From Bacillota bacterium (lineage in GTDB: Bacteria; Bacillota; Bacilli; Alicyclobacillales; SLC66): a DNA stretch of 41,058 nt. Position numbers and translations under genes: made by a program. The notes under the pieces are model-generated. The model ran no database searches, had not been told where the DNA came from, and saw nothing but the letters and a program-made list of their open reading frames with translations. This document shows, in pieces, positions 1,459 to 29,989 of this stretch (positions are counted from its first letter, which is position 1; each line of letters starts with the position of its first letter). The DNA lies in NCBI GenBank assembly GCA_026627345.1, contig JAPNUP010000058.1, positions 1-41,058 of the forward strand. Reading direction: 5' to 3'.

Positions 1459-1555
1459 TGGCGGGGGCGTCTGCGAATCGAACACAGCCATCGGCATCCA
1501 GCCGACGCACACGGTTTTGAAGACCGGGAAGGACACCAGTACCCCATCCGCCCCC
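1459..1555 (-). tRNA. selC: tRNA-Sec (anticodon UCA), selenocysteine tRNA
   Basis: A 97-nt tRNA reading minus with encoded 3' CCA (1461-1459) and discriminator G. The anticodon loop CTTCAAA carries UCA, which reads UGA. The variable arm is long, with seven pairs between CGTCGGC and GCCGATG. The T arm is CTGTG-TTCGATT-CGCAG (5 bp). The acceptor pairs 7 bp of GGGGGCG plus an eighth G.A position, close to the 8+5 layout of bacterial tRNA-Sec. The D stem is extended with a GGT loop. A serine tRNA would need a UGA anticodon, so tRNA-Ser is excluded. selA at 28562-29989 supports a working selenocysteine pathway. The 3' end faces the recombinase, marking this tRNA as the probable attachment site. 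Confidence 0.93.
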
Positions 1556-4791: not shown

Positions 4792-4804
4792 CATCGGAGT
4801 CCAC

Positions 4805-4893
4805 TGGCACTTCCTCCCGCTGGTATTATCCAGATCGAGTTTAAAAGGGTTAGCATCCATCTGCTTCTCAGCCATACGGCACCCCTAGCGCCT
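4805..4893 (-). promoter_or_regulatory. TPP (THI-box) riboswitch aptamer
   Basis: Read on the minus strand, the segment carries the conserved THI-box blocks in order: AGGGGTGCC, GGCTGAGA, ACCCTTT-AA, GATCTGGATAATACCAGC and a final GGGAGGAAGTG. These match the thiamine pyrophosphate aptamer consensus closely. Binding of TPP should favour the downstream terminator and shut off the ykoE transporter operon when thiamine is plentiful. Confidence 0.95.
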
Positions 4894-4916
4894 CTTCACG
4901 ATATGCAGTTAGTCAC

Positions 4917-4953: not shown

Positions 4954-4998
4954 TGCTAGGATAGACCTTTATGGTGCTGTCGCACCACCGTCTACGAG
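4954..4998 (+). repeat. Dispersed hairpin element, partial copy C, behind an extended -10
   Basis: Positions 4971-4998 are identical over 28 bp to 28494-28521 upstream of selA. They contain the hairpin TGGTGC-TGTC-GCACCA and the linker CCGTCTACGAG. The second hairpin of the full element is absent. An extended -10, TGC-TAGGAT (4954-4962), lies 8 bp upstream, so transcription should begin at the edge of the element. The RBS of the APH-like gene follows directly. Confidence 0.75.
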
Positions 4999-5025
4999 GA
5001 GAATGAACCACAAGGAGTGTGGGGG

Positions 5026-21650: not shown

Positions 21651-21729
21651 TGGTACAATATAGTCAGAATAACGGCGTTAGCCGCTTATTCTTCCCGTAG
21701 ACGGTGGTGCGAGAGCACCAAGTCACCGT
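21651..21729 (-). repeat. Dispersed hairpin element, full copy B (inverted), behind an extended -10
   Basis: The reverse complement of 21668-21729 matches 28486-28547 at 58 of 62 positions without gaps, and all four differences fall in loops or linkers. It carries the hairpin AATAAGCGGC/GCCGTTATT and the hairpin TGGTGC/GCACCA. An extended -10, TGG-TACAAT (21651-21659), on the plus strand starts transcription at the element's edge, so in this copy the RNA presents the reverse strand. The gene that follows starts at about 21768. Confidence 0.8.
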
Positions 21730-21761
21730 CTAGCCTCGGCACAAATTTCTATAGAGGCTGT

Positions 21762-28371: not shown

Positions 28372-28466
28372 GGTGGATGCTCCCTTACACACTTGGTCTA
28401 TACTAATAAAATCTGTTCTCCTTTATCCTAGCCGATGTGCATCTGTTATGCGAGTCAGAGACAGAC

Positions 28467-28547
28467 TGCTATAATGACGCTAGAAACGGTGACATGGTGC
28501 TGTCGCACCACCGTCTACGAGAAAAATAAGCGGCTAACGCCGTTATT
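28467..28547 (+). repeat. Dispersed hairpin element, full copy A, in the selA leader behind an extended -10
   Basis: The element spans 28486-28547. It has outer ACGG/CCGT pairing, inner hairpin TGGTGC-TGTC-GCACCA (28495-28510), linker CCGTCTACGAG and hairpin AATAAGCGGC-TAAC-GCCGTTATT (28525-28547). TGC-TATAAT (28467-28475) lies 10 bp upstream. The RNA would begin with the element and then read into selA 14 bp later. Confidence 0.8.
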
Positions 28548-28561
28548 TAGACAAGAAAGTA

Positions 28562-29989
28562 GTGAAAGCTGTGACGAGTGAAGTGGGGGTATTGCTACGG
28601 GACTTGCCACCTGTGCATCGGTTGCTGCACTCAAAAGAGGCACAGTCCTGGTTGCAGGAGCACAGTCGCACGGATGTGTTATTGTCCCTTCAGTCTGCGG
28701 TCGATACACTGCGCGCGAGTATTCTTGCGGGCGAGCGTCCCGAGGTGACGGATGAAGCGACGCTGGCGATGGCACGCACGTATCTGCACAGGCGCACTGG
28801 TCAAAACCTTCGACCTGTGATCAACGCGACAGGCACCGTACTTCACACCAATCTCGGTCGGGCGCCACTGGCGAAGCAGGCGATCGCAGCGTTAGTTGAA
28901 GTGGCGCAGGGATACTCGAATCTCGAATACCGCTTAGAGGAAGGCGTTCGTGGACACCGCTATGAACATGTCGAGGCGCTTATTTGTGAGCTGACAGGCG
29001 CGGAGGCGGCGCTTGTGGTGAACAATAATGCAGCGGCCGTCTTTCTAGTGCTCACCGAGCTTGCCAAAGAACAGAAAGTGGTCATATCGCGCGGTGAGCT
29101 GGTGGAGATAGGCGGTTCATTTCGGGTGTCTGAAGTGATGCGAGCTAGTGGCGCGGAGTTAGTAGAAGTCGGGACAACCAATAAGACACACGTCCGCGAT
29201 TATGCCGATGCCCTAGAGGCAGGCGCCAAGCTTGTGCTACGTGTACATACATCCAATTTTCGCATCATCGGCTTCACATCTCGTCCGGAGTTGTCCGACT
29301 TGACGACGCTAGCGCATGAGCACGGTGCGGCTTTGATCGAGGACCTTGGCAGCGGCTCGTTGATCGATCTGCGTGAGCGCGGGATTGGCGATGAGCCGAC
29401 CGTACGTGAAAGCATCTTGGCCGGCGTCGATGTGGTGACCTTTTCCGGTGATAAGTTACTAGGCGGCGCTCAGGCGGGTATTATTTGCGGAAAAGCGCAG
29501 TGGATCACGCGTATTCGTCAGAACCAGTTGGCGCGCGCGGTGCGTGTAGACAAGCTGACACTGGCGGCGCTAGAGGCGACGCTGCGGCTATATATCGACA
29601 AGGGCTACGCCATGGCTCATGTGCCAGTGCTACGCATGTTGACGAGAGCGCCTGAAGAACTGCAAGAGGAAGCGGACCGTGTGGCGCATGATCTCGCAGC
29701 TATCGTAGCGGGGCAAGCGCAGGTGCGCGTCGTCCCGACCATGTCGCAAGTCGGCGGCGGAGCGCTGCCATCTGAACAGCTACCGTCTTACGCGGTTGCG
29801 GTGTCGCCACACGTTTGTAGCGTCAGCGCGCTCATGGAACAGTTGCGCCTCCGTGAGCGGCCGATTGTGGCACGGGTCGTTAAAGAAGAGGTATTGTTGG
29901 ATGTGCGAACGATTTTTCCAGAGGAATTTGTGATGCTTGTGCAAGGGATAACCGAAGCGCTCGCACAAGCCGCTCAAACGAACGGATAG
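28562..29989 (+). CDS. selA: L-seryl-tRNA(Sec) selenium transferase
   Basis: A 475-residue PLP enzyme that converts seryl-tRNA(Sec) to selenocysteinyl-tRNA(Sec) using selenophosphate. Matching blocks are RPVINATGTVLHTNLGRAPL, EGVRGHRYEHVE, VNNNAAAVFLVL, VEVGTTNKTHVRDY, IEDLGSGSLIDL and the PLP lysine K298 in TFSGDKLLGGAQAGII. These match SelA end to end at normal length. Start GTG 28562 (or GTG 28571) is uncertain because only AAGAAAG precedes it. selC is at the other end of the window; selB and selD are not seen. hemZ follows 41 bp downstream and may be co-transcribed. Confidence 0.95.
   Translation: MKAVTSEVGVLLRDLPPVHRLLHSKEAQSWLQEHSRTDVLLSLQSAVDTLRASILAGERPEVTDEATLAMARTYLHRRTGQNLRPVINATGTVLHTNLGRAPLAKQAIAALVEVAQGYSNLEYRLEEGVRGHRYEHVEALICELTGAEAALVVNNNAAAVFLVLTELAKEQKVVISRGELVEIGGSFRVSEVMRASGAELVEVGTTNKTHVRDYADALEAGAKLVLRVHTSNFRIIGFTSRPELSDLTTLAHEHGAALIEDLGSGSLIDLRERGIGDEPTVRESILAGVDVVTFSGDKLLGGAQAGIICGKAQWITRIRQNQLARAVRVDKLTLAALEATLRLYIDKGYAMAHVPVLRMLTRAPEELQEEADRVAHDLAAIVAGQAQVRVVPTMSQVGGGALPSEQLPSYAVAVSPHVCSVSALMEQLRLRERPIVARVVKEEVLLDVRTIFPEEFVMLVQGITEALAQAAQTNG

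Follow-up and report, generated by a model that had tools for sequence, protein, structure and literature searches.

We describe a family of short palindromic repeats that is dispersed through the source genome and through related acid-mine and hot-spring bacteria, folds as a conserved double hairpin, and lies preferentially upstream of genes in the sense orientation. Very probably the repeat is a non-autonomous mobile element that has spread by what we infer to be transposition, with copies that persist as transcribed leaders. The window, a stretch of 41,058 nucleotides that is the whole of contig C98 in a 2.76-Mb draft assembly of 186 contigs (G000), contains two full copies and one partial copy (Table 1).

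Table 1. The element and its surroundings in the window
Feature	Position	Strand	Evidence
Full copy, selA leader, sense	28483..28550	+	Covariance model, 86.7 bits, E 1.9e-17
Full copy, inverted relative to downstream operon	21665..21732	-	Covariance model, 94.2 bits, E 2.9e-19
Partial copy in APH-like kinase gene leader: left end GGATAGAC, hairpin A and linker, without hairpin B	4959..5004	+	blastn, 94% over 34 nt; sequence
Hairpin A: outer stem ACGGT/ACCGT, 5'-side bulge, inner stem GGTGC/GCACC, loop TGTC	28486..28514	+	Covariation; fold
Purine-rich linker CGAGAA (consensus CGGGAA)	28518..28523	+	Alignment; GGGAA retained in genera g5, g6 and g7
Hairpin B: AAATAA-(G)-CGGC-loop-GCCG-TTATTT	28524..28548	+	Covariation; fold
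Extended -10 TGC-TATAAT of selA	28467..28475	+	Sequence; conserved upstream of selA in element-free relatives
Extended -10 TGG-TACAAT of ABC-type operon	21651..21659	+	Conserved in G001, G004, G006, G007, G009, G011, G013 and G016, where the element is absent
selA, downstream of copy	28562..29989	+	Pfam SelA, E 2e-153

A sequence-only reading of the window had reported a 62-bp two-hairpin element at the transcription start of three unrelated genes. Recounting gives the same agreement between the two full copies: positions 28486-28547 match the reverse complement of 21668-21729 at 58 of 62 positions without gaps, compared to 30 of 62 for the best ungapped 62-mer match in the shuffled window. 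The natural unit is a few bases longer, approximately 69 bp from TAGAC... to ...GGA, usually with TAG next, and consists of two unlike imperfect hairpins joined by a purine-rich linker (CGGGAAG), with ...GGATAG at the right end. Across the source genome, the consensus of hairpin A is GACGGT-(GACAT)-GGTGC-loop-GCACC-ACCGTC and that of hairpin B is GAATAA-(G)-CGGC-loop-GCCG-TTATTC. The four differences between the full copies had all been placed in loops or linkers; one of them, at 28524, is the paired first base of hairpin B, but the change is compensated at 28548 (A-T versus G-C), and the stems are preserved as had been claimed. The third copy is partial, as had been proposed, and has positions 4971-5004 in common with the full copies. 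The copy at 21668 is antisense to its downstream gene, an exception in this genome, and its complement also folds, in keeping with the expectation that both orientations would do so.

A covariance-model search of this genome and its relatives, proposed in that reading as a check, greatly extends the family. Whereas blastn (E<2e-8) finds more than 40 copies in the source genome, a covariance model built on 31 copies and 23 pairs finds 70 (E<0.01). The metagenome bin CF.Solf.bin.4 (G001), of the same genus, has 48 copies by covariance model, and three further genera of the family carry diverged forms, 6 and 18 (g5), 17 (g6), and 20, 28 and 46 (g7) per genome, with one weak match in g9. No copies were found with the first model in other genera of the family or in approximately 40 sister-family genomes. 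A second model was run on 399 class-level genomes, of which some 40 had also been in the first search; it matched family members and otherwise only three copies in the sister-family genome G031.

Compensating changes, also proposed as a check, are found within and between genomes. Two-sided changes affect 8 pairs in the source genome compared to 3.9 in shuffles, and across other genera 14 of the 23 pairs covary, with a score of 0.229 versus 0.105 when shuffled and 0.015-0.041 with slid partners, in an alignment that was fitted to the covariance model and leans towards it. Entire stems have been replaced between genera (GAATAA/TTATTC, GAAAAT/ATTTTC, GATTAT/ATAATC). As base pairs covary in this manner across genera, the fold is conserved.

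Most copies lie in sense in a 5' leader, or in an operon gap near the ribosome-binding site (RBS); a median of 37 nt separates the element from the start codon, often with the RBS immediately after the element. Relative to the gene on the right, 37 of 41 copies in the source genome are sense and 4 antisense, the bias is weaker in G001 (20/29), and the total over all genera sampled is 83 of 105 (p 1.6e-9), all counted with a simple gene caller of our own making. Of 20 copies in divergent gaps, 17 are sense to the closer of the two starts (source genome and G001, p 0.003), and 2 of 41 copies lie between convergent genes. Many copies occupy operon gaps, right behind the upstream stop codon, and in several cases the element's own TAG doubles as that stop. 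If approximately 75% of genes lie on the leading strand, replication-strand bias alone would make about 75% of copies sense; this fits G001, g5 and g7 but is exceeded in the source genome (90% sense, p 0.013), and we rejected it as the sole cause. An informal comparison of high- and low-scoring G001 copies gave no trend of sense bias rising with copy age.

The relation to promoters is a real tendency rather than a rule. In the 35 nt upstream of the element, 9 of 48 copies in the source genome and 5 of 31 in G001 have a strong extended -10, compared to 5 of 96 and 2 of 62 control windows taken further upstream, a 3- to 5-fold enrichment (Mann-Whitney p ~0.001 in each genome) obtained with a -10 matrix and 7-bit cut-off of our own choice; a stricter consensus count gives 8/48 and 5/31 against a 6.6% background. 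Placement at the transcription start, as first claimed, is borne out by this enrichment but describes fewer than 20% of copies. Of the three extended -10 boxes originally proposed in the window, those of selA and the ABC-type operon, 5-7 nt from the respective copies, are to judge from their conservation real promoters, whereas the third, TGC-TAGGAT at 4954-4962, is doubtful because it overlaps the element's apparent own left end GGATAGAC (4959-4966). Sigma-70 scans requiring a -35 returned no promoter at the three window copies, so the assignment of these boxes rests on conservation instead.

One alternative is that insertion depends on transcription initiation or on an RNA intermediate, with the element entering DNA opened just past the -10 box. 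The enrichment behind -10 boxes would fit, as would the position of two window copies within 5-7 nt of conserved boxes and a sense bias that holds even in divergent gaps. However, one of these two window copies is antisense, copies also occur in operon gaps and within genes, reverse transcriptase (PF00078) has no match in G000, G001 or G013, and selection could produce the identical pattern. We therefore consider this route improbable, and we give similarly little weight to its fuller form, in which an enzyme outside the known transposases would insert the element at initiation, mostly in sense, and so give genes a ready-made structured 5' leader.

The genes downstream are largely housekeeping and unrelated, including murI, gyrB, cysS, thrS, pyruvate carboxylase, gcvPA, nth, larE, msrA, thiolase, a chemotaxis receptor and selA. 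The leader of gyrB holds two tandem copies (L020/L021, contig C17), that of thrS a single one (L034), and a further copy lies upstream of cysS (L040). In the window, the downstream genes had been named as selA, an ABC cassette and an APH-like kinase; selA is clear from its Pfam match, but at the second site the first gene encodes a 650-aa protein with no Pfam match, and the ABC ATPase and permease genes come next. The same contig as selA carries a selenocysteine tRNA (1463-1555, minus strand), and a TPP riboswitch (65.9 bits) lies at 4795-4896, also on the minus strand.

Because the downstream genes are unrelated housekeeping functions, a regulon is unlikely. The suggestion that the element is an operator, a common regulatory site of one regulon at +1, draws on the similar position of the selA and ABC-operon copies, 5-7 nt past a conserved -10, but the sites differ between species, the downstream genes have no common theme, orthologs in relatives keep the promoter without the element, and the two window promoters carry it in opposite orientations. 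We consider this option close to untenable. A dedicated cis-acting 5'-leader RNA, an mRNA stabilizer or translation modulator selected gene by gene and merely distributed by mobility, would account for the sense bias in the source genome, the short distance to the start codon, the RNA-like conserved fold, and the presence in leaders of essential genes such as gyrB and thrS. Against it, sites differ from species to species, the bias is weaker in G001, where one copy disrupts a gene, and g7 copies also occur elsewhere; on balance such an origin seems unlikely, if worth bearing in mind. Stable hairpins close to the 5' end of other leaders in Bacillota can impede decay from that end, and the element may likewise slow the decay of its own transcripts. 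A role as 5'-UTR stabilizer would be compatible with the preferred reading of a mobile repeat.

As judged from genome comparison, the dynamics of the element would be those of such a repeat. Sites are species specific, with just a handful of flanks common to different species. Most relatives have selA and the first gene of the ABC-type operon, many with a TATAAT- or TACAAT-like box in the same place, and none of the relatives with these genes has the element at either site. Likewise, the gap upstream of the thiolase gene (L025) is element free in Ferroacidibacillus organovorans SLC66 (G005), a member of the same family, and in G007, G011 and G012. G001 contains ten identical copies and units of 69 bp placed head to tail, two or three at once, with several contigs terminating within arrays. 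Its gene for an MBL-fold protein is split by a copy in the motif THQDIDH, with a net gain of 69 nt relative to intact homologs; as two bases beside the insertion also differ from the homologs, the cut is not demonstrably clean.

A near-identical locus in G007 and G013 (L145 versus L149) differs by precisely one 69-nt unit located 3' of GGGATAG; at other sites only TAG or less is present on the left. The sequence carried by G007 and G013 at two further sites is missing from G016, where one copy of the flanking tail sequence remains. These presence/absence pairs could be losses instead of gains. Taken together, some 70 copies in both orientations, species-specific sites, arrays, an interrupted gene and an exact 69-nt pair speak for the mobile palindromic repeat that the sequence-only reading had listed among its options.

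The asymmetric ends, conserved hairpins and placement 3' of GATAG resemble the logic of IS200/IS605 elements and REPs, and terminal inverted repeats are absent (left end TAGACGGTGACATGG versus CTATCCAGAATAACGG, the reverse complement of the right end). None of the transposase families tested tracks the repeat. The Y1 transposase was rejected as driver on this ground: PF01797 has no match in the carriers G001 (88% complete), G006 (81%) and G012 (100%), and no element copy lies near any of 12 IS605-type loci examined. No viral contigs were found, and integron attC sites were rejected because units end at GATAG instead of a GTT cut. The mobilizing enzyme may have been lost, fall in an assembly gap or be of another type.

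Mobilization of a classical GTAG REP by a RAYT would sit well with a hairpin repeat that is asymmetric, dispersed and of high copy number, and the minus strand of many source-genome copies does have GTAG before hairpin A. We nevertheless think it has little chance of being correct, as the GTAG is not conserved (many copies have CTGC, CCAC or CCGC), and the three carriers without PF01797 and the copy-free IS605-type loci argue against it. Of the unpaired GTAG at the hairpin foot that marks REPs, the element has a sense-strand CTAC in part of the source genome only, and none in g7.

Variation in the element is modular. In g7 the unit has a constant 5' end, GGATAGACTTTCATG, a middle, CACCAACAACCGGGAAGAAAA, and a 3' end, TTTTCCGGGATAG, and the apex of either hairpin can be exchanged; the replacement in some copies is a ~90-nt palindrome, abundant in its own right. 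At 30 inspected GGATAGACTTTCATG loci, no transposase-bearing or long version was present within the stretch read. A second palindromic repeat of ~80-100 nt, GTCAGGATTCATATGCTG...CAGCATATGAATCC, occurs at L144, L145, L148 and L149 (G007, G013, G016) and in dozens of copies per genome, often directly 5' of the 69-bp element; it has a CCGGGATAG tail in common with the element and resembles a version of it in which the apex of hairpin B is enlarged. An apparent second repeat of 60 bp in the source genome was rejected, being unmasked neighboring copies of the 69-bp element.

Several loci bear on the surroundings of the repeat. At L143 (G016) and L150 (G013) an open reading frame runs in frame through a copy, which both species have kept. 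A variant copy and the next gene are nearly identical between L321 (G013) and L294 (G031), in two families of the order, pointing to transfer of the segment as a whole. In the source genome, a 794-bp stretch next to the element is 98% identical between contigs C51 and C39 (L004/L008), a segmental duplication.

PATE elements have two end hairpins and asymmetric ends, and insert 3' of a short target whose sequence recurs at the right end. Our element is similar in its two hairpins, asymmetric ends and GATAG-type right end, but differs in that the genomes searched yielded no parent insertion sequence whose ends match. PATE and MITE-like derivatives of IS200/IS605 have been mentioned previously (PMC3119063). 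Like REPs and REPINs (PMC3733652, PMC3116915), the element is a short, gene-free, imperfect hairpin repeat, dispersed in high copy number as singles and in groups, but its unit combines two unlike hairpins in direct head-to-tail arrays, without a conserved GTAG or a RAYT that tracks it. REPs lie mostly downstream of coding regions (PMC3733652), whereas the element is upstream of genes and in sense. CGTC-tagged REPs, including Rickettsia RPE (PMC3733652), are also palindromic, without a dedicated transposase and in part intragenic, as at L143 and L150; however, the CGTC of our element is base-paired, as part of the 3' arm of hairpin A, and g7 does not have it. BOX and RUP of streptococci, of Bacillota lineage too, are likewise small modular repeats whose modules can be swapped or repeated and whose transcript folds, but are overrepresented between convergent genes (PMC3049150), where our element is depleted (2/41); lineage and placement set the two apart.

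No description of the family was found in the literature searched, and Rfam has no element match, neither across the whole window at gathering score nor for 28440-28590 against 4227 models at E up to 10, which agrees with the earlier statement that no described element matches. The family thus appears undescribed. It belongs to a broad class that is already known, the small mobile palindromic repeats, in which its preference for sense 5' leaders is unusual.

We propose that the element would spread as folded single-stranded DNA, cut and joined at its GATAG end on the model of IS200/IS605 ends and REPs, by an enzyme acting in trans or since lost. Head-to-tail arrays would arise when a unit inserts 3' of a GGATAG end already in place. 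Copies would persist chiefly between an existing promoter and the RBS, mostly in sense, and there would be transcribed as a 5' double hairpin that probably alters mRNA stability or translation.

Small palindromic repeats in the literature compared tend to lie on the 3' side of genes or in convergent gaps, and this family, in a lineage that includes Ferroacidibacillus, does the opposite, with copies sometimes 5-10 nt past a conserved -10, including in leaders of essential genes. It varies by exchange of hairpin apices over a constant base, with no evident enzyme. The family offers a natural setting in which to test how a mobile hairpin turns into an mRNA leader, and what mobilizes such repeats without a RAYT.
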